A model generated the notes under the pieces. The model did not search any database. It was not told the DNA's origin and saw only the letters and a program-made list of their open reading frames with translations. The translations under genes and the position numbers were made by a program. A DNA stretch of 64,000 nt. Source: Actinomycetota bacterium. Its GTDB lineage: Bacteria; Actinomycetota; Actinomycetes; Nanopelagicales; Nanopelagicaceae. The stretch lies in the NCBI GenBank assembly GCA_947463725.1, contig CANHRM010000004.1, forward strand, positions 1-64,000, written 5' to 3'. This document shows positions 7,849 to 21,616 of the stretch, piece after piece (positions within the stretch are counted from its first letter, which is position 1; each line of letters opens with the position of its first letter).

Positions 7849-9018
7849 TTACTTCCATTCCGTAAATCTAATAGAAACTCCACCTGAAAAAGGATCAGCA
7901 AGTGAGTTCTCATTATCAAATTCTCTTCTATATTGAACCGACACCTTGCCTGCTAGCTTGGTATTTGAAGTGAAACCAATTGATGGCGAAAGATTTCCAT
8001 CTAGCAAGCGAAGAATTTTATTAATACCTGCACTCGAAACTTTCATAGTCTTTAACGCACACTCTAAATCAGCCATGTTAGCTCCCTGAGGAAAATAATC
8101 ATCACTATATTTTCCAAAATGTTCAAAATCTAAAACATAGTCTCCATTAACACTCCATAAAGTAATTGGGAGTGGCATAAAGTCTTTCTTCTTGTACAAC
8201 TTGCATTGTGAATAGGCTTTGTAAGTCAGAAAATTAGCCGCAGGATTGGAATATCCCGTAGGACATTTTGGAGGATCACCGGTGACCTTCTTCGAGACTT
8301 TGCCTTTTAAGCAAGTAATTGTCATTTTAATATTCTTTTGTGAATTTTGAAATTCAGCTTTATCGGCGGCAGCTTTATCGGCGGCAGCCTTATCGGCGGC
8401 AGCCTTATCGGCGGCAGACTTATCGGCGGCAGCCTTATCGGCGGCAGCCTTATCGGCGGCAGCCTTATCTAAAACTGCTTGTCTGCCTGGTGGGCAAGTG
8501 GGTGGAATCGGAAGACTCTCTAATACTCCATAAATATCCTTATGAACTCCGCATCGAATTATTTTTGTCAATTTCGGATTATCCGCAAATGCATTTTTTC
8601 CAACGAATTTAACTGAATCGGGTACGTCAACAATAGTTAATTGATTTCCCAAAAATGCGTTTGATCTTATTTCTGTAAGCCCATTCCCGAAAATTACCGA
8701 AGTTAACTTCGAATTTCTAAATGCGCTACTGTCTATTAAAGTTACTGAATCTGGAATAATTATGGAATTAAGATTTGTATTCATGAATGTCATCTGGTCT
8801 ACTATCTTGACGCTTGAATCCAAAATTAGGTCACCACTACAGTAGTATCCATGCCAAGCAAGTCCCCTTGGTTGTAGTACTTCATATTTTGCGGTTCCGC
8901 CACACGGAAATAAATCATCCGCACTAGCTTGTGACACTCCAGTACCAGTTAGCACTAGAGAACATAAAAGGGTGACTCTAAAGGCAAAAGTTTTCTGGCT
9001 CCAGATTTGGAATTTCAT
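7849..9018 (-). CDS. Exported BspA-like leucine-rich-repeat protein with (A)ADKA linker and C-terminal two-Cys module
   Basis: Signal peptide; LRR_5-like repeats (SIIIPDSVTLIDSSAFRNSKLTSVIFGNGLTEIRSNAFLGN); AADKAAADKA tract; TITCLKGKVSKKVTGDPPKCPTGY. Confidence 0.8.
   Translation of the reverse strand: MKFQIWSQKTFAFRVTLLCSLVLTGTGVSQASADDLFPCGGTAKYEVLQPRGLAWHGYYCSGDLILDSSVKIVDQMTFMNTNLNSIIIPDSVTLIDSSAFRNSKLTSVIFGNGLTEIRSNAFLGNQLTIVDVPDSVKFVGKNAFADNPKLTKIIRCGVHKDIYGVLESLPIPPTCPPGRQAVLDKAAADKAAADKAAADKSAADKAAADKAAADKAAADKAEFQNSQKNIKMTITCLKGKVSKKVTGDPPKCPTGYSNPAANFLTYKAYSQCKLYKKKDFMPLPITLWSVNGDYVLDFEHFGKYSDDYFPQGANMADLECALKTMKVSSAGINKILRLLDGNLSPSIGFTSNTKLAGKVSVQYRREFDNENSLADPFSGGVSIRFTEWK
8356..8469. 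repeat. 15-nt tandem repeat encoding the AADKA linker
   Basis: Repeated agccttatcggcggc units inside the CDS. Confidence 0.9.
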
Positions 9019-15293: not shown

Positions 15294-16556
15294 CTAAATT
15301 AAAGGCACTCCCAAAACGCCTCTGACTTCTTCAAACATTGTGTAGAAGTCACTTAACTTCACGCCAGTACCTGTTTCAAATGCTTGCGCAAAAGTCTTTC
15401 CCTGTCCGAGAGCCGCATATATTCCTAATAGCTTTTCGATTCCCACATTTGCGACGATGAACTCTGTCGCTACCTCACCAATTCCATATGGATCAGTGTC
15501 GTTATCGTTCTTCTTAACTTCTGAAAGTGGCAGCTTCTTCATTGCATTAGAGTCATATTTATAGCGATCAACCATGGTTTGCTGACCAAAAGTTAGGTAA
15601 TCGACGATTCCTAGTTTGCTTGAAGTCTGAAGGCCAATAAACATCGCGGGGCCCTCCCAAATCCAATTCGGAATAGTTGATCCATCAGGACCAGGATTAC
15701 GACCGGCATATCTTTCCTGAATAGCATGGAAAAATTCATGGCCAGCTGTTTGGGACATTCCAGATTTATTATTCACGATCGAATTATTCTTCTTGATCGT
15801 TGCATAATTCCAGGTATTCGAATAACTGCCGCCAAAAGCTGGTGCACCTGCATCAAAGCCGCCAAGACGATCTTTCACTTGCTGCGCTGTGAAACCTTCT
15901 TTTGTGTAAGCGCTCTCAAGCCAACTGCGGTCTATCGCAATTACGTCAACAAATGTACGAGTCAACTTTGGATAGTCAAAAGTTTTAGCAACAAGGTTTG
16001 CGCCCTGCTTAACCCAATTAATTAAAGTCTCATCTACGCCATCTTGAGCAATTACTTTCACCTCAGCTGTTGGGTTGCGTTCAGTTGATACGTAAGTTAA
16101 GAATTTCTCTGTAGCTGACTTTGAAACCTCTTGCGCAGAATTTGGCTTACTCCAACCATATTTCTCCCAGAGCGTTGCGTAGGTTTTTTCTGGTGTTGGG
16201 GATGGAGAAGGAGTTGGCGTGGCCGAAGCTGATGGTGATGGCGTCGCGGATGCTGATGGTGTTGGTGATGGCGTGGCCGAAGCTGATGGTGTTGGTGATG
16301 GCGCCGCGGATGCTGTCTGTGTTGGCGAAGCAACTGGAGCAGGTGTGACAGTTGGCGTTGCAACAACTTTTACGCCCTTACTCCAAACCAACTTCTTGCC
16401 GGATTTAACACAGGTGAATTTGTATCCATTTACTGTTGATGTGGAATTTAACTTCGTACAGGTGCCACCAGCTTTTGCTGTCGCGGCCACTGCCAGATTG
16501 GATGGCAATAGAGAAATGGCAAGTAGGACAGAAAGGGCGGGTGCTAGTCGGCGCAT
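15294..16556 (-). CDS. Exported protein: two-Cys module, P/S/A/T-rich linker, putative HExxH peptidase-like domain
   Basis: Signal peptide; CTKLNSTSTVNGYKFTCVKSGKKLVWSKG; (TPSPSASA) linker; AGHEFFHAIQERY. Confidence 0.75.
   Translation of the reverse strand: MRRLAPALSVLLAISLLPSNLAVAATAKAGGTCTKLNSTSTVNGYKFTCVKSGKKLVWSKGVKVVATPTVTPAPVASPTQTASAAPSPTPSASATPSPTPSASATPSPSASATPTPSPSPTPEKTYATLWEKYGWSKPNSAQEVSKSATEKFLTYVSTERNPTAEVKVIAQDGVDETLINWVKQGANLVAKTFDYPKLTRTFVDVIAIDRSWLESAYTKEGFTAQQVKDRLGGFDAGAPAFGGSYSNTWNYATIKKNNSIVNNKSGMSQTAGHEFFHAIQERYAGRNPGPDGSTIPNWIWEGPAMFIGLQTSSKLGIVDYLTFGQQTMVDRYKYDSNAMKKLPLSEVKKNDNDTDPYGIGEVATEFIVANVGIEKLLGIYAALGQGKTFAQAFETGTGVKLSDFYTMFEEVRGVLGVPLI
16195..16330. repeat. 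Degenerate tandem repeat encoding the SPTPSASAT linker
   Basis: Repeated gatggtgttggtgatggcgtggccgaagct-like units inside the CDS. Confidence 0.8.
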
Positions 16557-16687
16557 TGAGCGAGAATATAGGATTAAAAGTGAAAATTGAAAAGTCTGCA
16601 CCTTAAATCCGCGTGAAATTCTCAGACACCTGGTGGCAGATTGGGCTATGAAAAGGTTCTACGGAATAGAAATCAACAAGTTGCTTT

Positions 16688-17200
16688 TTACTCGGGCCGG
16701 AAGTTAAAACCAGCGAACGTTTTACCCTTGTACGTCGAGATAGCAATGTTAACCAATCGGTTGCCGTTTTTCATGGACATCAAATACTTAATCCCATGAT
16801 CATCTTCTGTTGCATCTGCAAGCACGTTATCCTGACACATTAGACATTCCCAGCCATCGTTAGTCATAGATAGTTCTATATTCGCAGCAACCTCTTCCCA
16901 TTCTTGCGTAAATTCATAACCCAGAAAACTTCTATCACCGTCGATTACTGATCCTAGTGCAGTGAATTTACCGGAAGCAGGGGGAGTAAAATCTTTGGGT
17001 AGCTTCCCCGAAAACTTCACACCTTTATTCCAAACCAACTTCTTTCCAGATTTAATACAGGTATAAGTTTTTCCTTTAGAAATCTGCCTAATTCCAGCTT
17101 TGGAGCAACCGGCACCAGGGGTCACAGCTGCAGCAGCTTCTGATGTCAACGAGAAGGTAATTATCGAACAGAAGAAAATCGTAAGAAATTTATTTTTCAT
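16688..17200 (-). CDS. Small exported protein with N-terminal two-Cys module
   Basis: Signal peptide; CSKAGIRQISKGKTYTCIKSGKKLVWNKG. Confidence 0.7.
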   Translation of the reverse strand: MKNKFLTIFFCSIITFSLTSEAAAAVTPGAGCSKAGIRQISKGKTYTCIKSGKKLVWNKGVKFSGKLPKDFTPPASGKFTALGSVIDGDRSFLGYEFTQEWEEVAANIELSMTNDGWECLMCQDNVLADATEDDHGIKYLMSMKNGNRLVNIAISTYKGKTFAGFNFRPE

Positions 17201-18291
17201 TTCTTTTTATAACCTGAAGGGCATACCGGTTTAACCGCCGTTACCTTCTTGGTTAGCTTTCCCTTCACGCATGTAATAGTGATTTTCTTTGCCGCTGCGG
17301 CTTTGGCTGCGGCCGCAGCTTTCTCCGCAAGTGCCTTGTCGGCGGCGGCCTTATCGGCGGCGGCCTTATCGGCGATTACTTTGTCCGCGGCAGCTTTCTC
17401 GTCTGCAATTTTCTTGTCAGCTGCAGCTTTCGCAGCAGCGATCTGAGCAGTCGTTAGCGGATCCAAATTCAATTGAAATAAAAATGTATAGCCAGAAACA
17501 TCTGCCGGGGCTTTCGCAGCACTTCCGCCACGGAAATATCGAAATTCAAATTTTGAATCTTTCGCAATTGTAGAGATATCAAATTTTGCAATTGTCAGAA
17601 GATCAAGAACCCATTGATAATTTACTTCTCCGCCCCATGTCCATTTTTCAGAATAGAACTGACTGATCGAAATAGTCGTTGCCCCTGGTGCTATATATCC
17701 AAAACCAATCCAACCTGGGTCAGAAATGGTGCAAGGAAACGGTGTGCTAATTCCATTTAGAATCTGAACTGTCCCTTGTAGAGGTGTTACGAGATCTGAT
17801 TTATATTCAACTAGATCTGGATGGCAAGGCCCAGCCGGAGTGGGATCAAGCACTATTGCAAGAGTTGCCGTTGGATTAGTTGCATCTACCGTTCCATTAA
17901 CAATTCGGTAAAAATATAAAGATAGTACTTTTTGTGCATCAATTGGTTGTTTAATTCCAGCAACCTTGAGCATCGAAATGAAATCCTCATAAGTGAAATC
18001 TTTCCACTTCCAAGAAGCGTAATCGGTTAAAGTTCCAGATTCGCTTTTAACTTCGTCACGCTCGCCATAGATAAGAGAAACTAGACCAGGATCTGCAGTT
18101 GTGCACTGCGCCGAAAGAGCTTGTCCGTTAAAAAGTAAGCCCATCGCTTGCCCAGGGTGGATCGAAAACTTGGTGTAATCAATTTTATCGGGCAGGCAAT
18201 TATCAGCAGCATGGGCGGCTATGGGCTGGAAAGTTAACGAAGTGATTAACGCCAGAACCGATATCCAAATACTCTTTTTGATAGATCCCAT
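17197..18291 (-). CDS. Exported protein with two tandem copies of an unknown domain, A/K/D-rich linker and C-terminal two-Cys module
   Basis: Signal peptide; paired CLPDKIDY...C..TADPG and CHPDLVEY...C..SDPG blocks; C-terminal ITITCVKGKLTKKVTAVKPVCPSGYKKK. Confidence 0.72.
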   Translation of the reverse strand: MGSIKKSIWISVLALITSLTFQPIAAHAADNCLPDKIDYTKFSIHPGQAMGLLFNGQALSAQCTTADPGLVSLIYGERDEVKSESGTLTDYASWKWKDFTYEDFISMLKVAGIKQPIDAQKVLSLYFYRIVNGTVDATNPTATLAIVLDPTPAGPCHPDLVEYKSDLVTPLQGTVQILNGISTPFPCTISDPGWIGFGYIAPGATTISISQFYSEKWTWGGEVNYQWVLDLLTIAKFDISTIAKDSKFEFRYFRGGSAAKAPADVSGYTFLFQLNLDPLTTAQIAAAKAAADKKIADEKAAADKVIADKAAADKAAADKALAEKAAAAAKAAAAKKITITCVKGKLTKKVTAVKPVCPSGYKKK

Positions 18292-18365
18292 TTGAGACTC
18301 CCCTGCTAGCCGGTATTGATATCACCGCTTAGCCAGGCAAGATTTATGCAGTTGAGGCTAAGAAA

Positions 18366-18935
18366 TTATTTGATTGCAATTATTAGTCTCACGCGACCTT
18401 GAAAATTAGGATCCGTTAAAAGGTAATTCAAAGTTAATTTGCCACTGAATGCGCCAAATTCATTTATATGGGTTCCGTAGCCAAGATCAAAGCGGCCAAT
18501 TTGGCTATTTCCCTCTGTCGCATCAGCTGGAGTCACGGTAAGCGTGCCAGCTATACCTCTAGCAAATTCGGGAATTTCAGAGACCAGTTCAAGAAATTGC
18601 CCTGGTTGAATCTCAGCGTTAGTTGAATAGGTGATCGGATTCTTGCCATCGCCTTTTAGATCAAGAATTATCACGCGTGATTGACTTGAGCTAGTTCCAA
18701 CGCTTTCGACCACGCTTTGTGAATTAGATGAAGAATTAGAACCAGATGAAATAGCGGTATAGATACCAAATCCCAAAGTGATAACAGCTAAGAAACCGAG
18801 TGCGGTAAATAGCCAATCTCGGTGGCGACGTTTATTTGCTTTGAGAATTACCAACTCAGCTAATTTCTCATTTGAAACTAAGTTGATACCTAGTCGCTCA
18901 AACTCGCGCTTGATTACATCATCAATCTCATTCAT
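18366..18935 (-). CDS. Single-TM membrane protein, candidate anti-sigma/regulatory partner
   Basis: One TM segment (DWLFTALGFLAVITLGFGIYTAI); start overlaps the end of the ECF sigma gene. Confidence 0.55.
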   Translation of the reverse strand: MNEIDDVIKREFERLGINLVSNEKLAELVILKANKRRHRDWLFTALGFLAVITLGFGIYTAISSGSNSSSNSQSVVESVGTSSSQSRVIILDLKGDGKNPITYSTNAEIQPGQFLELVSEIPEFARGIAGTLTVTPADATEGNSQIGRFDLGYGTHINEFGAFSGKLTLNYLLTDPNFQGRVRLIIAIK

Positions 18936-19555
18936 TTGTCGCCCCCTTTCTCTTCTACTAATTCAGCATCCTCTATGTCTTCTACCGTTAGTTCAGGTCG
19001 GTTTTTATTCACTGGGGCTGATATTTCTTTTGTGCCTTGGATAAAACTGGCAACAGCTAATCTGCCTCGCGCTAGATGTGAAGCTGCTGTACCCATCGGT
19101 ATCTGAAGCGAGCGTGCAATATCTTTAAGTGCATAACCTTCGTCATAAGTTAGAACTAAAACAGCGCGTTGCGCAGGAGTCAGTGATTTAAGCGCAGCGT
19201 GGACCAAAAGACGCTCAGTTATTTCATCAGTTGAATCACTGCCATCTATTGCAGCATCAAGTGCTTCAAGAGTTGTTTCTAACTCATCTTTCTTGCGAGC
19301 CCACTTACGTCTTAAGTCAGCATGCTTGCTAACCATAATTCGGACCGCATATGCCTCGAGATTTTCAAACTCACTTACTTTGGCCCATCGGCGATAAATA
19401 TCAATCAAAGTTTCTTGCAATACATCTTCAGCATTTTGAATATCAAAACAAATAATTCGGGCAGCGCGCAGCAAAGTTACCTGGTGCTCACCCACCCAGG
19501 CTGCAAACTCTTGGTCTTGCCCTTTAGCCAATTTTGCACTCCTTGTTGAGGGCAA
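18932..19555 (-). CDS. ECF (SigE-family) RNA polymerase sigma factor
   Basis: Region 2 AEDVLQETLIDIYRRW; region 4 LTPAQRAVLVLTYDEGYALKDIARSLQIPMGTAASHLARGR. Confidence 0.92.
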   Translation of the reverse strand: MPSTRSAKLAKGQDQEFAAWVGEHQVTLLRAARIICFDIQNAEDVLQETLIDIYRRWAKVSEFENLEAYAVRIMVSKHADLRRKWARKKDELETTLEALDAAIDGSDSTDEITERLLVHAALKSLTPAQRAVLVLTYDEGYALKDIARSLQIPMGTAASHLARGRLAVASFIQGTKEISAPVNKNRPELTVEDIEDAELVEEKGGDK

Positions 19556-19617
19556 AGGCTAACCGAATGGCTTGTAATAATCACTAGGGAAATCTTCTTG
19601 CCTGAGTGAACAATCAA

Positions 19618-20928
19618 CTAACTGGTAGGAATAGGTGCGATCTTTAACGCCTCTTTATCCCAAAGCACCTGTTTGCCTTTTGCCCACTTAATTTCGTCGT
19701 ATATATATTGGCCAAATTTTGGATAGGCCGCTTCAGGTGTAATTCCAAATGTTTTTTTAAATACACCTTTCCACGCGGGGCAGGTAATCCCTTCTTGGCT
19801 AATCGGATAATCACAAACGCCTATCCATGAGTCTTTAAGCCCAAGATAAAAACTTTGGATCGCATCATTTCCATATGTGCCACCGAGATACTGAAATGCC
19901 ATCGAACCTAGAATGTAATTTATCCAAGGGTCACATTGGCTACCCTTTTTGGTTTCATTTTGAACAAAAAAATCAGCCCAATCAGAAGCAGATTTTGATT
20001 CAAAATCAGGCACTTCGCCAAGTGTAGAAATTCTAGAAAGTGCTTGAAGCCAGAAGTTTCTATACATAGCTTGGCTATTACGTCCTGCCAGCATGAATCC
20101 GTAATAGTTTGCATTTCCTTCTCGCACCCAACACAACATTGGGGCCATTGAGTTGCCGAGTTCGTATCGTTGCACTACGTGAGTAAATTCATGAGAAGGT
20201 ACTTGAGACCAGAATGCATCTCCCCAGTTTGAATATGGACCTGCATTGAAAAATAGTGTCGCACCGCCATTTTTATCATTACCTGGTGCGCCGCCGCCTT
20301 GAAAACCAATCTCAGCTTTAGATCTTGCTAATTTCATATCTAGCCAACCACCATCTAAAAGTTCGGATGGAAGCACGGTCGTAATGTTGTCGTAAATCCA
20401 TTGGAACTCGGTAGTCATTGCAATCCAGATTCTCAGCGGAACGCTAATTGGGCGCTCTTTGGCAAAGAATTTCGCGGTGACATTAATATTGTCGATGATC
20501 TGCTTTTCTAGAACTTTATCCATCTTGGGATCAATAATGAATTCGATATTTGGGATTTCATCTGTCAGCCGGGATTTATAAGTCTGAATAAAGTCCTGAT
20601 ATGCGGCAAGTGTCAACGGAGTTAAGTCCGTAGGATAAACAACAGTTTGTGTCGTTGGAGTAGGAGTTGGTGATGGGCTAATTGATGAGCTAGGCGTCGG
20701 TACGGGAGTTGGTTTTGCTACAGCAACACCTTTATTCCAGAGCAACTTCTTACCTGACTTAGTGCAGGTATAGACCTTGTCTTTATAGGTAACCTTTTGT
20801 AGATAGACCTTACAAACAGTTCCAGGGGTGATTTTCGTTGCCGAGATTGCCGAAACCGGAAGCAGAATTGAGATTAAGGCAATAGGCAGACCCAGAAGTA
20901 AGAACTTTCTCAATCCTGTGAGCTTCAT
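19618..20928 (-). CDS. Exported protein: two-Cys module, P/S/T linker, putative HExxH peptidase-like domain
   Basis: CKVYLQKVTYKDKVYTCTKSGKKLLWNKG; PSHEFTHVVQRYE ... REGNANYYG. Confidence 0.75.
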   Translation of the reverse strand: MKLTGLRKFLLLGLPIALISILLPVSAISATKITPGTVCKVYLQKVTYKDKVYTCTKSGKKLLWNKGVAVAKPTPVPTPSSSISPSPTPTPTTQTVVYPTDLTPLTLAAYQDFIQTYKSRLTDEIPNIEFIIDPKMDKVLEKQIIDNINVTAKFFAKERPISVPLRIWIAMTTEFQWIYDNITTVLPSELLDGGWLDMKLARSKAEIGFQGGGAPGNDKNGGATLFFNAGPYSNWGDAFWSQVPSHEFTHVVQRYELGNSMAPMLCWVREGNANYYGFMLAGRNSQAMYRNFWLQALSRISTLGEVPDFESKSASDWADFFVQNETKKGSQCDPWINYILGSMAFQYLGGTYGNDAIQSFYLGLKDSWIGVCDYPISQEGITCPAWKGVFKKTFGITPEAAYPKFGQYIYDEIKWAKGKQVLWDKEALKIAPIPTS

Positions 20929-20983
20929 AAATACTCAACCGCATTAGTTGGGTCAATTTATGCACTACAAGCCAAAAGAATAA

Positions 20984-21616
20984 TTAAAGCTTTACCGAAT
21001 CCCCTAGTTTTCCAAGGTAGTAATTAGACAACTGATTTGCTGGCTTTCCTTGGCCGGCATGCTGACCTTCGAATGCATCAGATCCATCTTTGCCACAGAT
21101 GGCTCGAATTACTGCTGCTCCACCTGGATGCTTAGTGATCCACTTGGTTAAATCAAAAACATTTCCATAAACGATGCTCCAGCAACTTGTGCCTGAATCA
21201 TGCTTCTTAACTTCTTCCAGAGTTAGCTTAGTTAGACCACTGATCACACTTGCACTTGAGGTAGCAGACTTCGATGGTGATGAACTCTGAGTTGCGCTCT
21301 GAGATGGGGATGGTGTTGCACTCGCTGATGCTTTAGGCGTTGAACTTTGAGATGGAGTCCGAGTTGCGCTCTGGGTTGGACTTGGTGTTGCGCTAACTGA
21401 TGGTTTAGGCGTTGGAGTTGCCATAGTAACAGTTCCCTTTTTCCAGATAAGTTTTGTGCCTGACTTAACGCAGACATACTTAACTTTAGAAACAGTCTTA
21501 GTAGTTCCAACTTTGGTGCATTTGGTACCAGCAATTGTTGCAGCTTGAGAAGGCATTGCGACCGCAGATAGAAATACTGCAGTCAGAAGAACGCTGGAAT
21601 ATGCCTTAAATTTCAT
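20984..21616 (-). CDS. Exported protein: two-Cys module, S/T/P linker, cytochrome b5-like domain
   Basis: CTKVGTTKTVSKVKYVCVKSGTKLIWKKG; LEEVKKHDSGTSCWSIVYGNVFDLTKWITKHPGGAAVI. Confidence 0.82.
   Translation of the reverse strand: MKFKAYSSVLLTAVFLSAVAMPSQAATIAGTKCTKVGTTKTVSKVKYVCVKSGTKLIWKKGTVTMATPTPKPSVSATPSPTQSATRTPSQSSTPKASASATPSPSQSATQSSSPSKSATSSASVISGLTKLTLEEVKKHDSGTSCWSIVYGNVFDLTKWITKHPGGAAVIRAICGKDGSDAFEGQHAGQGKPANQLSNYYLGKLGDSVKL

Follow-up and report, generated by a model that had tools for sequence, protein, structure and literature searches.

A lineage-restricted basic two-cysteine module on exported proteins of Nanopelagicaceae: a candidate for non-covalent surface retention

Introduction

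Bacteria of the acI/Nanopelagicales lineage are among the most abundant in lakes. Here, we analyze a short, basic module with two cysteines that is found in four exported proteins encoded between positions 15294 and 21616 of a 64,000-nucleotide stretch of DNA (hereafter called the window; contig CANHRM010000004.1, assembly GCA_947463725.1). The genome carrying the window belongs to 'Ca. Planktophila' (Candidatus; acI/Nanopelagicales) and comprises 1.32 Mb in 50 contigs, at 78% completeness. The module was noticed in a preliminary description made from the DNA letters. We will show that it constitutes a new family of exported domains that corresponds to no named family, that it is reused on many different partners, and that it is largely confined to one bacterial family. 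We will also argue that it may serve to keep secreted proteins on the cell.

In our searches of the literature on Nanopelagicales secreted proteins we found no description of this module, and likewise no account of how acI/Nanopelagicales retain exoenzymes in dilute water. An unnamed, family-wide module on exported proteases and redox proteins would provide a handle on the acI surface proteome and would give a name to many 'hypothetical' secreted proteins. It is also a candidate small display tag for Gram-positive cells.

Results

The four module genes all lie on the minus strand, and each module is preceded by a signal-peptide-like segment. In the gene at 15294-16601, the signal peptide is followed by module copy 1 (CTKLNSTSTVNGYKFTCVKSGKKLVWSKG, 16374-16460), a linker rich in Pro, Ser, Thr and Ala (P/S/T/A; 16182-16373), and a metallopeptidase domain of the gluzincin fold, with its HExxH motif (HEFFH) at about 15726-15740. 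The true start of this gene is probably the internal ATG at 16556 (MRRLAPALS...) rather than the GTG at 16601. Copy 3 (CKVYLQKVTYKDKVYTCTKSGKKLLWNKG, 20728-20814) is located in the gene at 19618-20928, where a P/S/T linker connects it to another HExxH metalloprotease (HEFTH, about 20179-20193), and copy 4 (CTKVGTTKTVSKVKYVCVKSGTKLIWKKG, 21434-21520) in the gene at 20984-21616, where a P/S/T/A linker leads to a cytochrome b5 domain with HPGG present (21005-21223; PF00173, E = 1.5e-19). The gene at 16688-17200 encodes, behind its signal peptide, copy 2 (CSKAGIRQISKGKTYTCIKSGKKLVWNKG, 17021-17107) and, with no linker in between, a domain of ca 110 residues; no family match was obtained for either part. 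This domain has a C-x2-C pair behind the module and matches no Pfam or NCBIfam model.

All four copies follow the spacing C-x15-C-x-K-S-G-[KT]-K-L-[VLI]-W-x-K-G without deviation, as had been described, and with profile E-values from 1e-16 to 5e-21 in a one-genome search the resemblance is not due to chance. The preliminary description also had the module attached to unrelated domains, different in each of the three proteins with a linker. This is correct for the cytochrome b5 domain, but the other two, in the 15294 and 19618 products, are related HExxH metalloproteases (BLASTP E = 8e-5), which thus account for two of the four window proteins; across the family, on the other hand, the partners are indeed unrelated. 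The two metalloproteases score under the curated family cut-offs. The catalytic domain of the 15294 product resembles M1/M4 gluzincins, with leukotriene A4 hydrolase (LTA4H) as the best Foldseek match (E = 6e-4, probability 1.0), and its gluzincin residues H248, E249, H252 and E276 are at least 90% conserved (alignment A4).

The module is highly conserved in its key positions. All 167 distinct copies have a cysteine spacing of 15, a Trp stands eight residues past the second cysteine in 163 of them, and the residue at position -3 of the first cysteine is Gly in 162 of 164. Among 65-96 proteins, the G, both Cys and the K, S, G, K, L, W and G are invariant or nearly so, and a conserved aromatic residue (Tyr/Phe) is present besides the single invariant Trp, while no His, Asp or Glu is conserved. 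Both cysteines are kept in 219 of the 221 distinct copies in which the two positions could be read, which lends modest, indirect support to the disulfide bond that had been suggested.

The net charge of the module, which comes mainly from Lys, is +7.6 on average and at least +7 in 86% of the copies. The same threshold is reached by 0.2% of the 40-residue windows (7001 in all) taken from the attached proteins. In a control set of exported proteins that lack the module, chosen by a crude signal-peptide pattern, one of 32 mature N-termini reaches it. For the module alone, AlphaFold2 gives a mean predicted local distance difference test score (pLDDT) of 86, with a core of about 91, and three antiparallel strands (residues 16-19, 22-29 and 32-35). 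The model of the mature 15294 protein shows first the module (pLDDT 91-95), then a linker predicted to be disordered (42-51) and finally an ordered alpha/beta domain. The module is thus predicted to be a stable and independent three-stranded antiparallel beta mini-fold of ca 30-40 residues, and one disulfide, Cys10-Cys26 of the 43-residue construct, probably pins it.

No named family was found for the module, in line with what had been proposed. None of the Pfam or NCBIfam models extends over it in the window proteins, the isolated module has no Pfam match, and in a scan of 96 full module proteins no family dominates as a cover of the module. The best PHROGs match has E = 0.03 over only 17 residues, and an hmmsearch against PDB sequences yields at best a 19-residue match to nuclear-receptor zinc fingers (E = 0.43).

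The partner domains were surveyed in 185 distinct proteins from fetched loci, a sample that is biased to the best matches. Their partner sequences form 28 clusters, the two largest of which (63 and 57 members) consist mostly of HExxH metalloproteases, and the module is N-terminal in 182 of the proteins and C-terminal in three. The view that the module is a reusable one is thereby strongly supported, and this across the whole family. C-terminal copies are found on a trypsin protein, a PCuAC protein and a phage coiled-coil protein, which means that the position of the module is not tied to the signal peptide. In another family, two PCu(A)C copper chaperones (loci L185 and L186) have the module at the N-terminus in one case and at the C-terminus in the other, so it can change ends. 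Some module proteins have a second, degenerate copy.

Counted copy by copy in eight genomes, about one third of the module proteins contain an HExxH motif. Family scans of 96 proteins yielded the M6 metalloprotease model TIGR03296 in 30 and a flagellinolysin-like HExxH domain in 12, together with one or a few cases each of trypsin, M23, SGNH, cytochrome b5, PHM-like copper monooxygenase, PCuAC, NHL, BNR and fn3. TIGR03296 (M6) and gluzincin peptidases are the most frequent catalytic partners, the peptidase being the partner domain and not the module. Rieske domains also occur among the partners.

The combination of Rieske domain and module recurs across genera (L252:2137-2739, L278:1734-2414, L257:2114-2752 and L273:1679-2428), and the signal of these proteins looks like one for twin-arginine translocation (Tat), judging from SRRQIL-type sequences. 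Rieske is the only partner with which a loss of one or both module cysteines was seen. In the Rieske protein of one genome, Pro and Ala replace the cysteine pair and the rest of the module is intact; in a second one, the first cysteine alone is lost, and the lysines and the Trp are kept.

As to the distribution, a profile built from 13 module copies finds 13 strong copies in the window genome (E 1e-21 to 6e-16), that is, nine beyond those of the window, and two to four weaker ones. Other groups of module genes are three adjacent genes on contig 15 and one pair on contig 10. Of 151 family genomes, 137 have the module, and 15 of 17 genera are covered. In the same class it occurs in six genomes of two other families, and a phylum-wide search with a divergent profile found it outside the class in two genomes of one family only. 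The module is thus lineage-restricted and almost absent outside its family. When named genome contigs were scanned, 203 stretches with the module were confirmed; among the best 80 records, where the name is telling, most are labeled acI, Nanopelagicaceae, Planktophila or freshwater actinobacterium, with a few oddly labeled metagenome bins. We have also considered whether the modules of one genome are co-adapted or homogenized. This can be ruled out: the identity of modules on unrelated partners is 0.471 within and 0.474 between genomes, and a difference at least as large as the observed one arises in 1225 of 2000 label shuffles.

Other known means of surface attachment were examined as well. 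Among 244 module proteins, not one has a hydrophobic stretch at the C-terminus or an LPxTG-like motif close to it, and sortase (PF04203) was found neither in the window genome nor in four genomes of the same genus. Anchoring by sortase is therefore rejected, these features being lacking and the enzyme mostly absent. Lipoprotein anchoring is rejected too, since the residue at -3 of the first cysteine is the above-mentioned Gly and not Leu, Val or Ile, and a lipobox-like string is found in only 6 of 244 proteins. Glycopolymers are attached to the wall by LytR-CpsA-Psr enzymes, and 59 of 61 family genomes encode these. This implies wall-attached glycopolymers, which may be anionic. The Pfam models of known wall-binding modules (GW, LysM, SH3) do not match the module at E up to 1, and the same applies to CBM_5_12-type profiles.

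The stretch between the module genes also holds three genes that lack the module and had not been mentioned before, all on the minus strand. An extracytoplasmic function (ECF) sigma factor (18932-19555; PF08281 and PF04542) lies between the module genes and is overlapped by the gene of a short protein with one membrane segment (18366-18935), which by its position may be anti-sigma-like. The third gene (17197-18291) encodes a secreted protein whose C-terminus carries another basic Cys-x15-Cys tag (17200-17292, ITCVKGKLTKKVTAVKPVCPSGYKKK). Between positions 21616 and 15294 there are thus seven genes on one strand, which are separated by short gaps or share 4-base overlaps; promoter and terminator scans gave results under the shuffle means. 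The pair of sigma factor and membrane-segment protein also adjoins module genes in loci L178, L062 and L063, which suggests that at least some module genes may have their own sigma factor. The pair of cytochrome b5 and metalloprotease genes, beside an amidohydrolase gene, recurs in locus L064.

The second tag, ITCVKGKxxKKVTAxxPxCPxGYKKK, is lysine-rich and located at the C-terminus of secreted proteins (41 of 43), with the cysteine pair 15 apart in 42 of 43. A further copy in the window is at 8248-8328 on the minus strand, and others are in loci L194, L195, L196 and L281-L310. The tag occurs in 44 of 61 family genomes, with up to 22 copies per genome, and we noticed no named family for it. Tag and module were never found on one protein (0 among 43 tail and 244 module proteins). 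The option that the tail is a permuted module was tried; profile comparison gives a probability of 12% with 8 tail sequences and 2% with 39, and homology is thus not supported.

Discussion

What could the module do? The surface anchoring or ligand binding proposed earlier is plausible, being favored by the charge, the list of partners and the lack of other anchors. The explanation to which we give the highest weight, with a probability of roughly one half, is that the module acts in non-covalent surface retention by binding an anionic wall polymer. In most of the mature proteins the module is the folded part that comes first, and a flexible P/S/T linker often connects it with an enzyme or redox domain. 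Its basic face (KSGKKLVWxKG) would bind an anionic envelope polymer, which is probably a glycopolymer of the wall. The exoproteases and redox enzymes of a free-living oligotroph would in this way be kept on the cell and not be lost to the water. We infer the disulfide, the anionic ligand and the surface retention from features that are observed or computed, namely conservation, reuse, predicted fold, charge, taxonomic range, the absence of sortase in the window genome, and the lack of LPxTG motifs and C-terminal membrane segments.

It is important to point out that several observations weigh against surface retention. Nearly all N-terminal modules stand directly behind the signal peptide (median start residue 33), a location that may point to a function in export or maturation. 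P/S/T linkers are just as characteristic of modules that bind substrates. A few relatives, 6 of 61 family genomes, do have sortase PF04203. Finally, no structural match found by Foldseek is significant (best E = 1.0 in the PDB and 0.73 among viral models), and the fold therefore gives no functional clue.

The location behind the signal peptide would be natural for an N-terminal element of export, folding or maturation, i.e. a pro-domain or a sorting tag read by a dedicated enzyme. We consider such a role unlikely. Copies of the module at the C-terminus of trypsin, PCuAC and phage coiled-coil proteins do not fit it, nor does the presence of the module on Rieske proteins with their Tat-like signal or its predicted stable, independent fold, and the membrane segment of PEP-CTERM-type tags is missing. 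The module is furthermore not a protease pro-peptide, because its partners are not only proteases. Slightly better placed, yet still rather improbable, is a carbohydrate- or particle-binding domain that steers enzymes to an external substrate such as chitin or algal and detrital glycans, in the manner of proteins in which a carbohydrate-binding module (CBM), a linker and an enzyme are combined. The architecture of small domain, P/S/T linker and hydrolase, the invariant Trp with the conserved aromatic residue, and the BNR, NHL and fn3 partners in some proteins all speak for this, as do several Foldseek matches that stay below the threshold and are not significant (E at least 1.6), the targets being chitinases that have chitin-binding domains. 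However, such targeting makes little sense for cytochrome b5, Rieske, PCuAC, SGNH and coiled-coil partners, no Pfam CBM model matches, and the module owes its charge mainly to Lys and has just one Trp.

Another option considered was that the module, rather than being a tether, binds a metal, heme or other small cofactor, or is a redox-active cysteine pair. The redox and copper partners (cytochrome b5, Rieske, PCuAC, PHM-like) point in this direction, but with just two cysteines at a spacing of 15, with no His, Asp or Glu among the conserved residues, with peptidases making up about one third or more of the partners, and with Rieske proteins that have lost one or both cysteines and kept the lysines and the Trp, this has very little likelihood.

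Coming back to non-covalent retention, a precedent is offered by the GW (SH3-like) domains of Listeria, small modules for which one source (PMC4944223) describes the non-covalent retention of secreted proteins on the Gram-positive wall. The proposed function is what the module would share with them; it differs in having no Pfam match, ca 35 residues, a cysteine pair and usually a single N-terminal copy. GW domains have about 80 residues. Our best reading, by analogy, is that the module may work like GW- or LysM-type wall retention, although by sequence it belongs to neither. CBM5/12 domains resemble it as short beta mini-domains on a flexible linker beside a secreted enzyme, and they figure in the comparison through the non-significant chitinase matches; the module, in contrast, is strongly basic, has the cysteine pair, lacks a match to their Pfam models (E up to 1) and has partners beyond hydrolases. 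Sortase-mediated LPxTG anchoring would serve the same end, the display of secreted enzymes on the cell surface, but the module proteins have neither LPxTG nor a C-terminal membrane segment. PEP-CTERM and GlyGly-CTERM tags are likewise short, conserved and common to unrelated secreted proteins of one lineage, but they differ in their transmembrane helix, whereas the module is mostly N-terminal and predicted to be folded. The combination of C-terminal tag, transmembrane helix and basic cluster that characterizes the PEP-CTERM type was not found in the module proteins.

The module was also found on 24 viral contigs; annotated phage and plasmid records gave no module match. Viral contigs L202, L204, L212 and L219, of up to 108 kb, have it mostly on secreted metalloproteases, with endolysin and other phage genes alongside. 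Surface retention would provide a testable reason for the presence of secreted metalloproteases on phage contigs from these waters, which are possibly host-derived surface proteases used in infection. One may speculate further, as a doubtful scenario, that the mostly sortase-less Nanopelagicales use the two mutually exclusive basic Cys-x15-Cys tags as a lineage-specific surface-display code, and that phages have copied the N-terminal one to display metalloproteases on infected cells. In three viral contigs of 87-108 kb whose neighboring genes were examined, phage genes are found nearby, which encode an endolysin, a polynucleotide kinase, a carbamoyltransferase and other PHROG families; the module protein of these contigs is either a metalloprotease or a coiled-coil protein that has the module at its C-terminus.

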